From Nitrospirae bacterium CG2_30_53_67 (GTDB lineage: Bacteria; CG2-30-53-67): 8,210 nucleotides of DNA. Positions 1,402 to 8,210 of this stretch are shown here, piece after piece; position 1 is the first letter of the stretch, and each line of letters begins with the position of its first letter. Under the pieces are notes generated by a model that was given only the letters and a program-made list of their open reading frames with translations, searched no databases and was not told the origin of the DNA. Position numbers and translations under genes: made by a program. Location: assembly GCA_001873285.1 (NCBI GenBank), contig MNYV01000155.1:1-8210 (forward strand). The letters run 5' to 3'.

Positions 1402-4158
1402 CTACTCAATCCCCACGGAGTCACTCAATCCAAGATCATCCAGAATCTGCCTGAGTTCCGATTCAATGTGTCCGGCAATATCCGAGTTCAGGGTGACCGA
1501 AAAGTTGACCCCTACCTGAAGATCATCCCCGGCTTTCAACTTGGGAAGAATCTTCGTGCCCAGACGGTTCCACAATTCCGGCGGGATTGTTCCGACCAGC
1601 CTCAGAGTCCGTTTTCCAGGTTCCGGGGTAGGCCCAGGTTCAGGACCGGGTTCTGGTCCAGGCTCTGGTCCCGGACCAGGTTCTGTAGGCTCCTCAGGTT
1701 TGGGTACTGCTTTCACTCCAGCCTTGAGTAATTCGGTTTTATCTTTTCTGAGCAAGAAGACACCGGATTCGAAGGCCACTTCTTCAGGAAGAATCAATTC
1801 TTTAAACCAGAGCCGCTCATAAGTACCATCCGCCTTCTGCCCCGAACCCAGACCGAAATCTCCGTTACTCACAAATTCAACGATCTTTCCCCGTAGAACG
1901 GTATCAGGATCTATTAATCTGGTTAACGATCCGTTCAGGAAGCTCTGCCGCAAACTGGTGAGCGGCCATGCGCCTGAAGCCTTCAGTGCCGGCGGCCAGT
2001 TACGGTCGATGTATCCCGCACCCACGGATTCATTCAGGAGGGCCTCCGATCTCATGGCCGTAATCACTCTGCCGCAAAGAGTCTCACTCATGCTCGCATG
2101 TCCGGCACCGATATCCACCACTCTCAGCCCATCCGGCTCCTGATTGTCGGAAAGAACCAGGTATCTATATCCGCCCCAAACCTCATCCTTGGCATCCTCT
2201 TCGGAAACTTCTATCCTGGCTTGTATATCCGCCCGATCCGTGCGGTCAAAGTCAGAGCCCAAAGTACCGTCCTTGATCTCATTAGCCACTCTCTTCCAGG
2301 CAAGCCAGATCTCGACATTCTCTCTCAGGTCACGCCCAGGTCTCTTCAGACACCAAACAAGAGATCCCGGATACAATCTCGGAGACTTCCCTCTCTGCTT
2401 TGTCCACTCTGCAACCTGATTGCGAAGCGGTCCGCTTCCCGTCCATTCATCCTTCGGATCCATCAAGACAAGAGTGAGCCTTGGAGTGTCCTGTATGGAA
2501 GAACTATCCTTTGGATATTTTACGATCGGGATGCCGGCTCCGCGTTCAAATTCTTTCACAACCAGATTATCCATTGCCGGTTTTATTTCAGAATCTTCAT
2601 CGAGGGAGGCTCTTCGGTCGCTGACGACCTTCTTCAAAGTGGGTTGATGCCTGATCTGGAACCCGTCCGACCCAATCTTCCGGATGAAAAAGGCCTTGGA
2701 TTCCAGAGCAAACGCCGCATTATCGACTGATGTCGTATCCACTCTCGGTTCTCCAAGTGCGAACCGAAGCTCGGGCAAATGGGCTACCTTGTCCACCTGA
2801 CCGCCGGAGGACTCAAAAAGTATGGTCGAGGCCACACGGCGATGAATGTCCCTAAGAGGTCCTTTGGTATCTGCATCCAAGGCCCCCGCATGGGAATGTT
2901 GGCCAGAGATGTCGGCCTCAATAGCGGCCACAAGCCTGGACTCGCCCAGTTGGCCGAGGATGACTCCCCGAAATTCCGGCGCCCCGAGTGGAGCAGAACC
3001 CAATGTAATCAACGGCTCATTTCGTGCCCGCTGATACGCGTCCCGATAGGCCCAGGATATCCACTGGGCAAGCATTGCCAGGGTTCCACGCGTTTGCTGA
3101 TACTGTTGAAGCGCTTGCCATTTCCGTTGAAAAACCGAAAGGGTCGCAGGATGAAAGGGGTAACAGGCTTCAAACCGGCTCCTCAGAAATTCTTTTGCCT
3201 TGGACTCCGTGGATGCCGTATCCACCGCAGTCCAATGGGATGGAAGCTCAGCCCGTCGTTCGAAGCACCAATCAGCATATGCCTTGGCAACATTTTTTCG
3301 GATCCTCTCGCTCCCCAAATCCTCAAACAGACGCCTCCGGACCACTTCGCTGATCTCGGTCTCGTCATTTGCGATCAAGTCCTTGGCCACGCGGCGGACG
3401 ACTTTTTGGATCCTGTCCTGCCATTCCATATCCCAGTCCGTCATCTCCACCTGGCTGCGTGGAAGACTGATGACTGCAGCACCCCGCGTCGTGCCGGTCA
3501 TGGCCACGGTTAGATTCTGGAGAAAGGCGTGAAAAGAGTCCGCCATTTCCCGATGCCGGTTCATAAAATTCAGTACTTCATCAAAGAGGATGAGCACGGT
3601 CCCGCCCGCTGCGTCAAACACCCTTCCGATTGTCTCGGTTCCAGGCGGCGTCGTTTTTGCAGCCTTGCCAAGTTCGGCTACGCCCTTGTCCCCGGCAAGC
3701 TGCCGTGCAACATCAATCCATGGAGTCTCACGCCCGTCCTGATGGTCCCATGCATTACCCACAAACACGGCCACCTTTGCTTCCGGAACAGCAGAGAGCC
3801 CGGCTCCCTGAAGAAGCTCTGAAACACCCGGATAGGCGCCGGCCTTCTTACCATTTTTAGCAAGGTGGTAGAGTGCCGTGAGGGTATGAGTCTTGCCGCC
3901 CCCGAACTGCGTGATCAGGGTCAAGACCGGCGCCGTGTCAGCAGTTTCACCGCTCAGACGGCGGAGGACCATTCCCGCGTGTTCTTTCAGAGCCCTGGTA
4001 AAGCACGTTCGTGAAAAGAATTGCTCGGGATTTCGGTAATCCTCCGGCGCCGTTTTTGCAACAACTTGTTCAAGGGCAATGGCAAACTCATCCGGATTAA
4101 ATGAACGGCCCTCTCGAACTTCTTTTCGTGGTGTTGCCACCTTGTACCAGGGTTCCAT
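1402..4158 (-). CDS. DUF499 (COG1483) AAA+ ATPase, core gene of methylase-ATPase defence system
   Basis: 918 residues from the ATG at 4158, which has AAGGAG 5 nt upstream. A GTG at 4171-4173 would add five residues but lies inside a repeat, and the two DUF499 remnants in this window also start MEPWYKV. The N-terminus [20 protein letters not shown] is characteristic of DUF499. Walker A is [10 protein letters not shown] at 82-91, Walker B VLILFDEV at 188-195 (D193, E194), and a sensor-like stretch AAVISLPRS follows at ~227-235. Near the C-terminus, just after residue 800, is a Pro-Gly-Glu linker, then a ~75-residue tail domain ([16 protein letters not shown] onward). DUF499 ATPases occur beside DUF1156 methylases in anti-phage loci and, as I recall, are related to the BrxC/PglY ATPases of BREX. 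The role as an NTP-driven core component is inferred. The frame is open throughout, and it is the last gene of the locus. Confidence 0.92.
1617..1698 (-). repeat. Pro-Gly-Glu repeat-coding linker in the DUF499 gene
   Basis: The DNA here is a run of imperfect 12-bp units encoding [19 protein letters not shown] and flanking residues. It links the ATPase body to the small C-terminal domain and is expected to be an extended, flexible spacer. Such tandem units change length easily by replication slippage. Confidence 0.75.
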
Positions 4159-4513
4159 AAAAACTCCTTTCACCGCGGAGGCGCAGAGACCGCGGAGAAT
4201 TCTTTAGCCCGACTGTCCACCCGCCAAGCTTCAGGTAGGTCAACAATTGGGCTTCGTGGATGGGTTGAAGGGCGTCCACCACCTTCAGTTCGAGTACCAC
4301 CGCTTCTTCTACAAGGAAGTCCAATCGGTATCCACACTCCAGTTTCACACCCTTGTATGTCACGGGCAAGGGAACTTGTCTATCGAATTTCAGACCTCGT
4401 AGCTGCATTTCATGGGCGAGGCATTCCTCATAGGCAGATTCCAACAAACCAGGCCCAATAGTCTTATGGACCTCAATAGCTGCCCCGATTATCTTTTCAG
4501 TGATTTCCTTCAT
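4097..4513 (-). CDS. GxxExxY family protein (PD-(D/E)XK-like), C-terminus replaced by repeat-encoded tail
   Basis: 138 residues; native sequence ends near residue 103. The name motif is at G22, E25, Y28 ([14 protein letters not shown]). A PD-(D/E)XK-like core is visible as D65 in [10 protein letters not shown] and E75-L-K77 in VVLELKVVD, followed by QLLTYLKL at 89-96. Family members normally continue after 'VGL' with a LINFN...LKDGIKR-type end. Here that end is missing, and residues ~104-138 are encoded by repeat copy 1 (4171-4197) and by the start of the DUF499 gene in another frame, so the reading frame overlaps the ATPase gene by 62 bp. The protein may be inactive. The biochemical role of the family is not firmly established; a nuclease-like fold is family knowledge. 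The start ATG follows a repeat copy and has only a weak AGAG-like ribosome site. Confidence 0.85.
4164..4169 (-). promoter_or_regulatory. Shine-Dalgarno site deciding the DUF499 start
   Basis: AAGGAG on the minus strand, 5 nt before the ATG at 4158. The repeat copy at 4171-4197 ends one base beyond it, so the insertion left the ribosome site of the ATPase intact. The equivalent sites of the two remnant starts are also still readable: AGGAGAGGA before 6008 and GAGGGGA before 4822. Confidence 0.8.
4171..4197 (+). repeat. 27-bp repeat, copy 1 (plus orientation)
   Basis: One of seven copies in the window of a 27-bp repeat with consensus start CACCGCRGAGGCGCAGAG, then GACGCAGAG. This copy varies in its last third (ACCGCGGAG). 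It lies between the GxxExxY gene's native end and the DUF499 ribosome site. Its CACCGC tip points to the ATPase, away from the GxxExxY gene. Confidence 0.9.
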
Positions 4514-4522
4514 ATCGCTTTT

Positions 4523-4549
4523 CTCTGCGTCCTCTGCGCCTCAGCGGTG
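4523..4549 (-). repeat. 27-bp repeat, copy 2 (minus orientation)
   Basis: The minus strand reads CACCGCTGAGGCGCAGAG followed by GACGCAGAG, one mismatch from the consensus. It ends 9 nt before the GxxExxY ATG, so it forms most of that gene's leader. It is inverted relative to copy 1 across the gene, with 325 bp between them. Confidence 0.9.
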
Positions 4550-4598
4550 AATCCTTCTTAATTCATTGCTTTGACATCCATTACTATCTTCGTCTTTC

Positions 4599-4625
4599 CT
4601 CTGCGTTCTCCGCGCCTCTGCGGTG
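4599..4625 (-). repeat. 27-bp repeat, copy 3 (minus orientation)
   Basis: The minus strand reads CACCGCAGAGGCGCGGAG followed by AACGCAGAG. It is a direct repeat of copy 2, 49 bp away. Both share the flank GGATT before CACCGC. It begins 5 bp after the stop codon of the DUF1156 remnant at 4631. The AT-rich spacer between copies 2 and 3 holds no gene. Confidence 0.9.
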
Positions 4626-4630
4626 AATCC

Positions 4631-4783
4631 TTATCGCGGTACCGCGAGCAGCATGGCGTCCAAGAGCCTTTTTTCCTCTGATCCCTTTGGGTAAAGAGCC
4701 GAGAGGGCATTTGCAAGCCTTAAGAAATCTGGGCCACGATCCTGCTCGGCCTTGATGAGCGCCCGAAAGCCGTGGGCCTGCCC
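4631..4783 (-). pseudogene. Remnant: last 50 codons of a DUF1156 methylase gene
   Basis: Reads GQAHGFRALIKAEQDRGPDF then LRLANALSALYPKGSEEKRL, ending LLDAMLLAVPR and TAA, in one uninterrupted frame. It matches the end of the methylase at 7226-8210 with five amino-acid differences in 50, while many codons differ silently. It has no start and joins directly to a DUF499 start remnant on its upstream side (4790-4822). It is the right border of cargo module 3, and the cassette repeat begins 5 bp after its stop. Confidence 0.88.
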
Positions 4784-4789
4784 TTCCTT

Positions 4790-4822
4790 TCACAAACTAA
4801 CCACCTTATACCAAGGTTCCAT
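4790..4822 (-). pseudogene. Remnant: first codons of a DUF499 ATPase gene
   Basis: An ATG at 4822 opens MEPWYKVVSL and stops at TGA 4790-4792. The first seven residues equal the intact ATPase and the eighth matches the other remnant (V). A GAGGGGA ribosome site precedes it and overlaps the end of the nuclease gene, whose TAG lies 2 nt upstream of the ATG. Homology is lost after about eight codons, and the DUF1156 end begins 6 bp later. A ten-residue peptide could be translated, but I see no reason to give it a role. Confidence 0.8.
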
Positions 4823-4824
4823 GA

Positions 4825-5799
4825 CTATTCCCCTCCCAATGGTCTTCTCAAATGCTCAAAAAGCTTCAATGCAGAACTTTTCAGGCGATACAAATTTGCA
4901 TACGCTTCAGGGGCAAAATCATTTTCTGCCTTGTACATTCTGTATCTTATTCCATCAGTCACGACGATGTCCCTGGTGACTCCCAACTCGACGAGATACC
5001 TCTTGGCCTGCTCAAGGGCACCTTCCACTCCGGCTCCAAGTCTCTTTGCCTCGATAACCAGATGACAATTTTCAGGATTCCGAGGTAAAGAACGAAAAAC
5101 GCATACATCAACTCGTTTCCATTTAATAGCAATCTGCTCCACCTGCCATCCGAGAGCGCGAAGTAACGGAACGACAAAATGCGCTATGAGTTCATCTTCA
5201 GTCGGATGTTCGCCGAAGGCTTGCTGGTTCCAATAGAAACTGAATAGGTCATGGGCCTGTGCAACCAAGCCTTGTAACGGTATCGGGACTTCATCCAACG
5301 GTGGTTCTTCTTCTGGTAACTTTGGCAATGGTGCAGTTTGCCAATGAACGGGCGGCGACTGAATGAACCGATAGGCGTAATCCAAAACCGTTGCATTGCC
5401 AACCTTTGAAATCCGCGGGGGATTTGCCCCAAAAACTAACTCATCAAATTTATATTCATCAGGTAATCGAGACCAGTGTACCCTCCTTGCGTGCTGCAAG
5501 TCCCATCCGTTAACATCATCGAACTGAGGAAGATACTGGTACCCACCATCCACAACCCCAACGGCCTGAATTGATGCTTGACTTACCCTCAGAAGGAATA
5601 TATCTCTCGGGATGACCTCGGACGCAAATCGTCGAACGTAACTTCCTTCAAATTCATCATCGCTCAGTTCGGGCCGCCATTCTCCTGCGTCACCGGGCCC
5701 AATTAAGGCAACGCCGTATTTTAGAAAAACGTCCGCATAGGACCGGGTAATTGGACCACCAGAGACCTGCCATACATTTCTTGTTATTGCTACCGCCAC
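4825..5799 (-). CDS. PD-(D/E)XK nuclease, HsdR N-terminal type, with possible EVE/PUA-like N-terminal domain
   Basis: 324 residues from a GTG at 5799, with GAGGTGA a few nt upstream overlapping the remnant methylase's stop. A longer frame opens from an ATG at 5913, but its first 38 codons are the DUF1156 remnant read out of frame, so I reject that start. Residues ~1-112 form a distinct unit with GVALIGPGDAGEW, RDIFLLR, IQAVGVV and a DVNGWDLQHARRVHW block; its shape recalls EVE/PUA-like DNA-reading domains, which is a tentative call. Residues ~175-315 are nuclease-like: E203 in HPTEDELIAHF, D231 in KRVDVCVF, E250-A-K252 in LVIEAKR, and Q264 in ALEQAKRY, the pattern of type I restriction R subunits. 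No helicase motor is attached. It could cleave DNA with foreign modification; that is inferred. It is the sole gene of cargo module 2. Confidence 0.82.
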   Translation of the reverse strand: MAVAITRNVWQVSGGPITRSYADVFLKYGVALIGPGDAGEWRPELSDDEFEGSYVRRFASEVIPRDIFLLRVSQASIQAVGVVDGGYQYLPQFDDVNGWDLQHARRVHWSRLPDEYKFDELVFGANPPRISKVGNATVLDYAYRFIQSPPVHWQTAPLPKLPEEEPPLDEVPIPLQGLVAQAHDLFSFYWNQQAFGEHPTEDELIAHFVVPLLRALGWQVEQIAIKWKRVDVCVFRSLPRNPENCHLVIEAKRLGAGVEGALEQAKRYLVELGVTRDIVVTDGIRYRMYKAENDFAPEAYANLYRLKSSALKLFEHLRRPLGGE

Positions 5800-5803
5800 C
5801 CCG

Positions 5804-5909
5804 TCACCTCGGTACCGCCAGAAACATGGCATCGAGCAGGCGCTTCTCTTCGTTGTTTTTTTGGGTAAAGAGCCGACAGGGCATTGGCCAAGTGTAGGAA
5901 ATCCAGGCG
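5804..5909 (-). pseudogene. Remnant: frameshifted last ~34 codons of a DUF1156 methylase gene
   Basis: Reads DFLHLANALSALYPK; then an A-run of seven (5856-5862 on the plus strand as T) shifts the frame. The intact gene has six at the same place (7278-7283). Removing one base restores NNEEKRLLDAMFLAVPR and the TGA at 5804-5806. After that correction only three of 32 residues differ from the intact methylase end. The stop lies 4 nt before the nuclease's GTG, and its AGGTGA serves as that gene's ribosome site. Confidence 0.85.
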
Positions 5910-5915
5910 GCAATG

Positions 5916-6008
5916 CTGCTTCAGGTGGATGGCGAACTCATCCGGATTAAACGACCGGCCCTCACGGACTTCCTTGCGCGGCGTGACTACTTTATACCAG
6001 GGTTCCAT
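5916..6008 (-). pseudogene. Remnant: first 31 codons of a DUF499 ATPase gene
   Basis: Begins [20 protein letters not shown] and runs to FAIHLKQ before switching to DUF1156-derived sequence. Over the first 27 codons 14 differ from the intact DUF499 gene, yet only one changes the residue (A8 to V). The ribosome site AGGAGAGGA before the ATG at 6008 is intact and overlaps the TAG of the DUF1828 gene. Read through, the fused frame would give a 72-residue chimera; I regard it as a recombination scar. Confidence 0.9.
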
Positions 6009-6017
6009 TATCCTCTC

Positions 6018-6785
6018 CTATCCCGCTAAGGCCTGCACATATTTTTCTCTGTGTGACCACACGGCTGGCTTTACCTCGTATGCTTCGAGCGCCTCGATTA
6101 CATCCCCTCCGACCTCCCTGTCCTGATCATTCAGGAAAGCATAGGCTTCTGATTCTTCACCGCGTGCCTCACGAGTGTCGGTGAGGCCAAACAGGTAGGT
6201 TCCGATAGTGTTCTTATTTGGCGCGTTAATCGCCTGAACAAGTCTTTCCGGCCTGCTCCGGGATTTCGGTATTAAGAAGTCTATGGCATGGTCAAAACCG
6301 CTTCTACCTGCAATTTTTACTCGGGGGCTATACCGCACATCGTGTTTGTCGAGAAACGCCCTCACATCCTCCCAGAAGAAGGTAGCGACCCGTGGCTGCG
6401 CCATGATAAACATATCATTCACTGCAAGCATCGCCTGTATGAACACGTGAAGGCGCTGCCCGATATTTCGCTGGGATGCTTCGACAAGAAGCCGGTTGCC
6501 ATCAAGTTTGACTCCAAAACCCTTGAGAACAGAATCCAGCACCGCCTTTCGCTTGGGCGTAGTCAGTTCAAGCCCGCTTGTTCGAAGGTCCGAAAGAGTA
6601 TAACCATCATCGGAAAGAATGATCTTCCCATTTTCCTTGATTGCATATATCTGCAGATGATCATTATGCCTGTCAAGAAAAGGAGTAGTAAGTTCGCAGG
6701 CGTTTTCCAGGCTTTCTACCGACAGCCCCTTGCGAAGCCACTCCACATAAGCATCTATGAGCTGCTTACATTCCTGTTTGTTCAT
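6018..6785 (-). CDS. DUF1828/DUF1829 domain protein
   Basis: 255 residues. The N-terminal half has the DUF1828 pattern, with LTTPFLDRHNDHLQIY (32-47) and IILSDDGYTLSDL (55-67). The C-terminal half has the DUF1829 pattern, with SPRVKIAGRSGFDHAIDFLI (153-172) and NAPNKNTIGTYLF (187-199). No membrane segment or signal peptide is seen. Its function is unknown to me. Such proteins are often found in defence islands and mobile regions, and this one sits inside a defence operon. The ATG at 6785 overlaps the stop of the DUF6978-like gene (ATGA), so the two are translationally coupled and probably act together. Its TAG lies within the ribosome site of the DUF499 start remnant, showing the same tight fit to the ATPase border as the other modules. 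Confidence 0.82.
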   Translation of the reverse strand: MNKQECKQLIDAYVEWLRKGLSVESLENACELTTPFLDRHNDHLQIYAIKENGKIILSDDGYTLSDLRTSGLELTTPKRKAVLDSVLKGFGVKLDGNRLLVEASQRNIGQRLHVFIQAMLAVNDMFIMAQPRVATFFWEDVRAFLDKHDVRYSPRVKIAGRSGFDHAIDFLIPKSRSRPERLVQAINAPNKNTIGTYLFGLTDTREARGEESEAYAFLNDQDREVGGDVIEALEAYEVKPAVWSHREKYVQALAG

Positions 6786-7216
6786 AAGAATCCGTCCTGA
6801 AAAGGAGGCGCCATGATATTGCAGTACCTACAGAAATCATCAAAGCTGTCCTGTATGCTGCTTGGATTCCTGAACTCATTGTTGTTGATCGGATACGCCC
6901 ACTTATCCTCGAAGCCTTCCAAGTATACATGAAGATGTGCCCCGTCAAGCCGTGTACCGTCTGGGTTCGTATGCGGTGCCCCATTAATATCGAGACGGAC
7001 AAGGACGATGACCTTTCTGCCCCTGTTTTGAAACTTGAGCTTTGACAAGCGTATAGTTCGACGCCACAAGTCGAGCAGAAATCGCTCTCGCGTGTCTTCG
7101 CTGACAAGCTCGTGTGTATGATCACTGCCCGGCGGCAGGGAAATCGTTACTGATTCTACAAAGTTCTTCCTCATTGCGATGAGGCCGTCTGCTTCAATTT
7201 GTGTCAATATGTCCAT
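6782..7216 (-). CDS. DUF6978-like small protein, partner of DUF1828 protein
   Basis: 144 residues. Key visible stretches are LTQIEADGLIAMRK (4-17), RTIRLSKLKFQNRGRK (53-68), VLVRLDINGAPHTNPDG (71-87) and HLHVYLEGFEDKWAYPI (94-110). The PHTNPDG and HLHVY histidines could be catalytic or metal-binding, but that is a guess. I assign it to the DUF6978 family from memory of the HTNPDG...DKWAYP pattern. It is the first gene of cargo module 1, 9 nt after the methylase stop, with no good Shine-Dalgarno, so it probably depends on translation of the methylase. It overlaps the DUF1828 gene by 4 bp. Confidence 0.72.
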   Translation of the reverse strand: MDILTQIEADGLIAMRKNFVESVTISLPPGSDHTHELVSEDTRERFLLDLWRRTIRLSKLKFQNRGRKVIVLVRLDINGAPHTNPDGTRLDGAHLHVYLEGFEDKWAYPINNNEFRNPSSIQDSFDDFCRYCNIMAPPFQDGFL

Positions 7217-7225
7217 AAGTTTCGT

Positions 7226-8210
7226 CTATCTTGGCACGGCTAAAAGCATCGCGTCAAGAAGTCTTTTCTCTTCGCTGTTTTTTGGGTAAAGCGCCGACAG
7301 GGCATTTGCAAGCCTCAAGAAATCAGGACCGCGATCCTGCTCAGCCTTTATGAGCATCCGCAAAGCATTCGCCTGCCCGCCGGCCTGAAGCAGCATTGCT
7401 GCATGTACCCGGTCGAGTGTGGTCGCCTCTTTCTCACCGCCGAGACGCGGAGAGCGCAGAGATTCTTCATTAAATAACCTTTTTGTCTTTCCTCTGCGTC
7501 CTTTGCGCCTCTGCGGTGGATTGTCTTCCAATTCAGGAAAGAGCAACTGCTGGTAATCCCTGCGAGGATCATGCTCAATCAAGTCGGCAACAGCATCGGC
7601 CCCATCATCACCAAAGAGCTGCCTGGCTCGCTCACTAACGGACAAGAGGCGAACCACCCCTTTTTGTGTCTCAATGATCCGTCCTTCCCAATCCGGAAGA
7701 TGAATCCCCAAGGGCTGAGCAAAACGCCGGGCGACATCGAAGACCAGGGAAAAACCTTTGCACCGCGGAGGCGCAGAGGACGCAGAGTCTTCATCATTTT
7801 CAACTTCTTCTTCCTCTGCGTTCTCGGCGTCTCTGCGGTGAGATTCTTCCCCATTCGTACTCTGAAGCGTCCAGAGAAATAGCGCCGTCAACCGCGCATC
7901 CTCTTCCAACGCCCCGGCTGCGCCGTTCCGAGCGCGGGCCCCTGCCTGCGCCGCGTCCCGCGACGCGGCAGGCAGGTCGTCCGTGCCAAGGATATTTTGG
8001 AGGGCGATGCGACCGACGGTCTCCCAGACATAGGCGAGATAGCCGCGTTTATGTGGTTCCTTGGCTTCAGGGTCACCGCCCAAGGGAATTGGCTTTCCTT
8101 CGGCATCTTCGACCTTGGAGTAACGGCTGTAAATCTCCAGAGCTGGCCCTATGCATGCGAAGACCAAGTCTGCACCTCGGACTCCCTCGTTTTGGAGCCT
8201 TTCCATCCAG
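7226..8210 (-). CDS. DUF1156 (COG1743) DNA methylase, C-terminal part; 5' end outside the window
   Basis: The frame is open to the right edge. The first ATG at 8206 is internal, because the preceding codon (Trp) and the following ERL...GADLVFACIGPALEIYSRYS belong to the conserved protein. Recognisable C-terminal blocks are GYLAYVWETVGRIALQNILG, GALEEDARLTALFLWTLQST, SLVFDVARRFAQPLGIHLPD and the end FLRLANALSALYPK...LLDAMLLAVPR. The DUF1156 domain and the methylase motifs lie further N-terminal and cannot be checked here. The family is an adenine-type DNA methylase paired with DUF499 ATPases in phage-defence loci. Three hydrophilic linkers are enlarged by in-frame palindromic repeats (7435-7518, 7761-7840, 7941-7976). 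It is the first core gene seen in the locus. Confidence 0.88.
   Translation of the reverse strand, partial: WMERLQNEGVRGADLVFACIGPALEIYSRYSKVEDAEGKPIPLGGDPEAKEPHKRGYLAYVWETVGRIALQNILGTDDLPAASRDAAQAGARARNGAAGALEEDARLTALFLWTLQSTNGEESHRRDAENAEEEEVENDEDSASSAPPRCKGFSLVFDVARRFAQPLGIHLPDWEGRIIETQKGVVRLLSVSERARQLFGDDGADAVADLIEHDPRRDYQQLLFPELEDNPPQRRKGRRGKTKRLFNEESLRSPRLGGEKEATTLDRVHAAMLLQAGGQANALRMLIKAEQDRGPDFLRLANALSALYPKNSEEKRLLDAMLLAVPR
7435..7461 (+). repeat. 27-bp repeat, copy 4 (plus orientation)
   Basis: CACCGCCGAGACGCGGAG followed by AGCGCAGAG. Paired with copy 5 (30-bp gap) as an inverted pair with CACCGC tips outermost. Inside the methylase gene it encodes, in the gene's sense, SLRSPRLGGE within a poorly conserved linker. 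Confidence 0.88.
7492..7518 (-). repeat. 27-bp repeat, copy 5 (minus orientation)
   Basis: The minus strand reads CACCGCAGAGGCGCAAAG followed by GACGCAGAG. It encodes QRRKGRRGK in the methylase frame. With copy 4 it can form a long hairpin in DNA or mRNA. The following GAAAGAC flank is shared with copy 3. Confidence 0.9.
7761..7787 (+). repeat. 27-bp repeat, copy 6 (plus orientation)
   Basis: CACCGCGGAGGCGCAGAG followed by GACGCAGAG: one of the best matches to the consensus. It encodes SASSAPPRC in the methylase frame and pairs with copy 7 across a 26-bp gap. Confidence 0.92.
7814..7840 (-). repeat. 27-bp repeat, copy 7 (minus orientation)
   Basis: The minus strand reads CACCGCAGAGACGCCGAG followed by AACGCAGAG. 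In the methylase frame it gives HRRDAENAE, the reading in which this repeat is often met in predicted proteins. It forms the inverted partner of copy 6. Confidence 0.92.
7941..7976. repeat. 36-bp hairpin, unrelated to the 27-bp repeat, inside the methylase gene
   Basis: CCTGCCTG (7941-7948) pairs with CAGGCAGG (7969-7976), and CCGCGTC (7951-7957) with GACGCGG (7962-7968). This makes a 15-bp stem with a 2-nt bulge and a 4-nt loop. In the gene's sense it encodes DLPAASRDAAQAG between NILGT and the ARNGAAGALEED block. It looks like a small palindromic insertion element kept in frame. Confidence 0.7.

Follow-up and report, generated by a model that had tools for sequence, protein, structure and literature searches.

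The window (the whole stretch of 8,210 nt that was analysed, i.e., positions 1 to 8,210 of contig MNYV01000155.1, assembly GCA_001873285.1, from Nitrospirae bacterium CG2_30_53_67) appears, from its gene matches, to hold an Hma-type defence operon with an HmaB methylase and an HmaC ATPase, carrying embedded cargo. The contig stops within HmaB; in a related locus (L081) the HmaA helicase is present. Proceeding in the direction of transcription, the following features can be distinguished, all on the reverse (−) strand:

7226..8209, − strand: HmaB-type adenine methylase, 3' part only (contig edge); PADLOC HmaB, E 5e-4 for the fragment
6782..7216, − strand: cargo A gene 1, DUF6978 protein (PDC-M24A); PADLOC E 1e-48, Pfam E 2e-43
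6018..6785, − strand: cargo A gene 2, DUF1828/DUF1829 protein (PDC-M24B); PADLOC E 4e-99
5916..6008, − strand: scar 1 part A', first 31 HmaC codons and ribosome-binding region; profile alignment
5804..5920, − strand: scar 1 part M', last 38 HmaB codons and stop; profile alignment, nhmmer E 3e-25
4825..5790, − strand: cargo B, HSDR_N-like nuclease-domain protein; Pfam HSDR_N E 4e-5, just below the cut-off
4798..4822, − strand: scar 2 part A'', first 8 HmaC codons; profile alignment, nhmmer E 2e-3
4631..4783, − strand: scar 2 part M'', last 50 HmaB codons and stop; profile alignment, nhmmer E 6e-37
4513..4628, − strand: cargo C left repeats (copies 4589-4628 and 4513-4552); repeat D2, inverted repeat I1
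4097..4513, − strand: cargo C, PD-(D/E)XK (PDDEXK_3) protein; Pfam E 2e-38, list of open reading frames
4160..4202, − strand: cargo C right inverted repeat, directly ahead of the ATPase; repeat comparison
1402..4158, − strand: intact HmaC (DUF499) ATPase; PADLOC HmaC E 2e-90

The conserved end of HmaB comprises its last 66 codons (7229-7426 in the window), and full-length HmaB proteins in related loci give HmaB matches with E values of 1e-111 to 5e-117. Between HmaB and HmaC lie three cargo units (7216-4097), the last of which, cargo C, has a reading frame that extends beyond the ATPase start and left repeats whose spacing from the methylase stop equals that in intact slots. When compared to the PADLOC models for embedded candidates, cargo A matches PDC-M24A/B, cargo C matches only Cas4 (E 0.005), and cargo B has no match. 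Cargo B belongs to slot family 1, which has 23 members and is found in further slots among the 100 that are described below.

Cargo of the PDDEXK_3 (GxxExxY) type is flanked by one 27-base repeat (CTCTGCGTCCTCTGCGCCTCTGCGGTG), inverted where it is present on both sides. Its sites in the window are 4160-4202, 4513-4552 and 4589-4628, and it was also found in L037, L067, L073, L023, L256, L030 and L035. Its spacing to the methylase stop and to the ATPase start is constant across phyla, and the 76 other slots gave a single match in 114 kb. The repeat further occurs inside the methylase frame of the window (7432-7461, 7482-7521, 7750-7792 and 7804-7843), in a hypervariable linker, and likewise in L023, L030, L035, L045 and L084, with recurring distances to the methylase end (~280 and 545-610 bases) in several phyla.

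The codon counts that the first-pass annotation had reported for the two scars were reproduced. For the ATPase remnant at 6008-5928, 14 of 27 codons differ from intact HmaC, 13 of them silently and one by a replacement (V8 for A8). Since about 76% of the changed codons are expected to replace a residue under neutral change, the probability of finding at most one replacement in 14 is 1.2e-7. The methylase remnant at 4783-4634 differs from the resident gene in 5 of 50 residues, with 24 of the 29 changed codons being silent, and the remnant near 5804 differs in 3 of 32 residues once the frame is corrected for an extra base in the T run at 5856-5862. Profile alignment refined the boundaries of scar 1: the ATPase piece reaches 5916 (31 codons) and the methylase piece begins at 5920, with an overlap of A' and M' by 5 bases (AGCAG). 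Scar 2 also opens with an ATPase start (4822-4798), and here 14 filler bases lie between A'' and M''. Nucleotide profiles of the gene ends detect the window scars with E values of 1e-26 to 2e-3, and five dinucleotide-shuffled sets of all slots gave no ATPase match and one methylase match (E 0.79). A 22-base inverted match at 5904-5925 (repeat I5), initially read as an inverted methylase piece resulting from a template switch, was dropped as a coincidence, because HmaC up to codon 31 followed by HmaB from codon 29 suffices to describe the joint.

When the HmaC N-terminus was used to scan 84,980 species genomes, 80 loci were obtained; further genomes that were searched added more, and removal of duplicates left 100 distinct HmaB-HmaC slots from many phyla. 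The slots range in size from empty (~10-100 bases) to more than 6 kb, 90 of them having at least 60 bases, and recurring cargo includes an AAA ATPase with DUF4276, HSDR_N-like proteins, PDDEXK_3, nucleotidyltransferase/HEPN, DUF433 with a neighbour, and DUF6978/DUF1829. Clear scars occur in seven of the 100 slots, i.e., in the window (two), L050, L063 (two), L166 (two), L248, L253/L086 and L126, and L060 is a weak eighth case. In these scars an HmaC 5' end lies at a cargo border, and in most cases an HmaB 3' end comes next. If full-length HmaB and HmaC are compared to 125 kb of slot DNA, the matches consist only of HmaC 5' ends or of at most the last 83 HmaB codons, all in sense orientation. 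The scars mostly span 8-70 codons, as compared to ~920-1000 codons for the genes; the longest ATPase remnant is that of L166, which can be aligned with HmaC up to about codon 72 of ~920 and whose final part fits HmaB too. The same-genus genome G003 and the family members G001 and G004 contain no HmaC match, which counts, like the recurrence of scars in other slots, in favour of the slot joining proposed below. No mobile carrier was found across phages (no match), plasmids (relatives only, with less than 60% identity) and viral contigs (one, L123).

Such recurrence bears on the question whether the window could be a chimera that was assembled from several strains of a metagenome bin. With 8210 bases, the contig is a short one from a draft genome. 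Its positions 1-432 recur at 93% identity at the end of another contig (C72), which suggests strain variants in the assembly. However, the same scar architecture is present in independent assemblies, some of them on long contigs (G1382:C2, 1.28 Mb; G157:C18, 121 kb), and a chimera is extremely improbable.

Gene ends of this type were also encountered at places where an intact HmaC was not detected. The related genomes of L249 and L252 carry a DUF433 protein and its neighbour between an HmaB end and an HmaC start, adjoining the 3' end of what reads as a ribosomal protein L20 gene, and in L252 a 215-base copy of the L20-like gene end is present on the other side of the unit too. In L245 (9762-11085) a nucleotidyltransferase/HEPN pair lies between an HmaB end and 43 HmaC codons, with no intact HmaC found, and in L127 (9075-9194; G002, from the window's family) an isolated HmaC start occurs beside a DUF433-like pair without intact HmaC.

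For A1 (the ATPase piece of scar 1), M1 and M2 (the methylase pieces of scars 1 and 2), comparison with the resident gave pS values of 0.75, 0.745 and 0.673, and pN values of 0.016, 0.090 and 0.106, respectively, where a pS of ~0.75 is expected for random silent sites. Since silent sites are saturated and protein changes are few, the scar and resident copies diverged as working genes, and the earlier proposal that the scars have a divergent, formerly functional origin is well supported. Identities to the resident (81% for A1, 75% for M1 and 75% for M2) are in the range of unrelated genomes or different phyla, and the number of genomes that are nearer to the scar than the resident is amounts to 37, 22 and 2, respectively. 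The GC3 of the scars is also higher than that of the same resident codons (A1, 0.67 vs 0.41; M1, 0.66 vs 0.50; M2, 0.64 vs 0.54), and M1 and M2 are only ~69% alike. To judge from these substitution patterns, truncation came after nearly all of the scar-resident divergence, which excludes a recent local duplication in this window; two full-length paralogues of ancient origin within a single genome are a possible source.

The trees of gene ends that had been proposed for placing the scars were constructed, but they were undecisive because pieces of 80-200 bases provide too little sequence. In the methylase 3'-end trees, from which the misplaced row L044 was left out, M1 stands apart from the resident, but M2 is weakly its sister (support 88/92, unstarred), at a path length of 0.39 that makes it as distant as other phyla. 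A clade of all three copies, named beforehand as the refuting outcome, was 27.7 log units worse and was not rejected (p-AU 0.23). In the other slots, a sister relation of scar and resident methylase ends was rejected for L050 (p 0.034), nearly rejected for L166 (0.064) and recovered for L063 (85/73). The expectation that each scar would group with the cargo type that it borders was not borne out: no significant link was obtained (mean AUC 0.53, p 0.17), and the scar pieces show no preference for same-cargo loci. Linkage between cargo and flanks was considered as well, but even though same-cargo flanks are ~1-3% more alike, this likeness does not decay away from the slot, and the result was taken as negative.

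These data allow local duplication to be weighed, by which unequal exchange within one operon would have copied HmaB 3' and HmaC 5' ends, with cargo entering or replacing the copies later. The two ATPase scars of L166 are 95% identical to each other over 62 bases (pN 0) and 71-72% identical to the intact ATPase, and as near copies of each other they indicate that local copying happens too; the sister relations in L063 and, for M2, in the window point in the same direction. On the other hand, a truncated copy in the window would have gained protein changes along with saturated silent sites, GC3 and the distance between M1 and M2 count against it too, and the joins between scars and cargo are placed as the intact joins of other genomes. 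The earlier phrase 'rather than local duplication' thus holds for a recent event in the window but fails as a general rule (L166), and as the origin of the scars local duplication is quite unlikely.

The copied joins are the strongest evidence that the scars are probably former slot borders and not stray fragments. The M'' stop is separated from the cargo C repeat by 8 bases, as in intact L037 and L256 (9 in L067), and the next 29 bases are nearly equal to those of L037 (TAAGGATTCACCGCAGAGGCGCGGAGAACGCAGAGG in the window, TGACGATTCACCGCAGAGGCGCGGAGCACGCAGAGG in the intact L037 slot). The window's transition from cargo A to A' is similar to that in intact L019 and L038. In L063, the join of cargo B to A' (AGACCGTAGGAGGATCGCG next to ATGGAACCC) resembles intact L055, and the join of M' to AAA cargo (TGAGGAG..TC.GATGCTGAAGAAGCTGACC) resembles intact L060; the join of M' to AAA cargo in L166 matches intact joins likewise. 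Since the borders copy intact joins, each cargo would still lie between the HmaB end and the HmaC start that it once had.

Because each scar border in the window copies the join of an intact HmaB or HmaC beside that cargo, we consider it probable (about 0.72) that the window results from the end-to-end joining of three former Hma cargo slots. The order would be HmaB-cargoA-A' / M'-cargoB-A'' / M''-cargoC-HmaC, with short gene ends alone left at the two inner borders (A'/M', 6008-5804; A''/M'', 4822-4631). Such an arrangement could arise if divergent Hma operon DNA entered and underwent homologous recombination with the resident slot on one side, and short-homology or end joining connected one HmaC start to one HmaB end on the other side; alternatively, a short-lived tandem may have been formed and later cut down. 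A single functional HmaB and a single functional HmaC would thereby enclose a longer list of cargo. The divergence, the GC3 values and the copied joins are also in favour of the earlier suggestion that the scars arrived already different from the resident genes; we infer a horizontal source, and arrival from outside is likely, not proven.

Short shared sequences were found at the joins of scar 1 (AGCAG), L166-S1 (CATGCGG.CATG) and L248 (GCtCTC), with 5-12 shared bases at some joins, and the L166-S1 spot is among the three commonest short matches between HmaC and HmaB. The joins of scar 2 and L050 contain 14 and 9 filler bases, respectively, and lack a clear stretch in common. This mixture of joints with shared bases and joints with filler is compatible with illegitimate joining. 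A junction hotspot at HmaC codons 25-29 and HmaB codons 38-42, first thought to be common to four scars, was rejected since L248 and L063 align a few codons off and other short matches are commoner. Only a general statement about short homology is kept for the scar joins.

An identical end product would be obtained from two complete Hma operons in tandem that were fused when a single deletion removed the DNA between an early point of HmaC and a late point of HmaB, and a second Hma locus does exist in some genomes (L014 and L020 share one genome; G491 has its loci on two contigs). However, among the 51 slots for which 5 kb or more of downstream sequence is available, none has a second full HmaB or HmaC next to the operon, which makes us lean to one-sided recombination with an illegitimate joint. 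Furthermore, random breaks would leave long pieces, yet all ATPase scars comprise at most ~72 codons. Fusion of tandem operons is a possible but less probable course of events. The shortness of the remnants also counts against the joining of slots proposed here, as that mechanism by itself gives no reason for it; it may be due to the way of joining, to later erosion or to selection against longer ATPase fragments. Other points against slot joining are that the trees place the scars with no named foreign lineage and M2 weakly with the resident, that scars and cargo types are not significantly linked, that the L166 scars were copied locally, and that filler takes the place of shared bases at the joins of scar 2 and L050.

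The scars could also have been maintained by selection if, as small A'-M' genes in frame, they lead ribosomes over the joint so that the next cargo is translated. The fusion has an open frame in L050 (62 aa), L063 (51), L166-S1 (118) and L248 (51), scar 1 of the window was in frame until it gained its extra base, and ribosome sites and stop-to-cargo distances are kept. Nevertheless, window scar 1 is frameshifted, scar 2 contains a stop and L166-S2 is out of frame, while scar residues change at otherwise constant sites and short matches in the same frame would yield fused frames even without selection. We regard such a role as very unlikely. Another idea is that a unit of an HmaB 3' end, cargo and an HmaC 5' end behaves as a mobile cassette that can also establish itself outside Hma operons; a short HmaC/HmaB match might serve to close such a unit into a circle. 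Lone units of this composition are carried by L245, L249 and L252, three genomes in which no intact HmaC was detected; movement as cassettes is conceivable but unlikely.

The joining of slots is of interest since Hma slots are a main source of new defence-gene candidates, and in the portions of the literature that were available the entry and stacking of cargo are not described. Scars that keep the exact former joins would form a physical record, from which the order and origin of cargo can be read, and they point to a step that is open to testing, in which the start of one HmaC becomes connected to the end of another HmaB.

Like integron gene cassettes, the window has serial cargo units that are gathered at one place, but its units are bounded by gene ends instead of recombination sites; a repeat search revealed no array-wide site or attC-like sites, and there is no integrase among the genes. 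Another parallel is homology-facilitated illegitimate recombination, in which one end has a homologous anchor and the other end is joined at a few shared bases (PMC6382021). This would produce a joint of the A'/M' type, and some of the joins share 5-12 bases; however, the process is known from laboratory transformation, and two of the joins described here have filler.

The Hma defence system consists of the HmaA helicase, the HmaB methylase and the HmaC DUF499 ATPase (PMC8565338), and is elsewhere named DUF499-centred BREX-related systems (PMC12839542). The window agrees with this by its HmaB and HmaC matches in the order HmaB then HmaC, and L081 has HmaA as well. The available text of these two papers does not mention gene-end scars between cargo. 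Hma-embedded candidates (HEC) and phage defence candidates (PDC) were found by 'guilt by embedding' (cited in PMC12988326), and the slots described here conform to that pattern: their cargo lies between HmaB and HmaC, cargo A corresponds to PDC-M24A/B, L063 contains HEC-01A/B and the nucleotidyltransferase of L050 is PDC-S09. Thus, embedding of cargo in Hma was already known, whereas stacked slots with gene-end scars go unmentioned in the accessible parts of the literature searched. The HEC/PDC work gives the cargo its names, and the window adds stacked cargo units with remnants of what were probably former slot borders.
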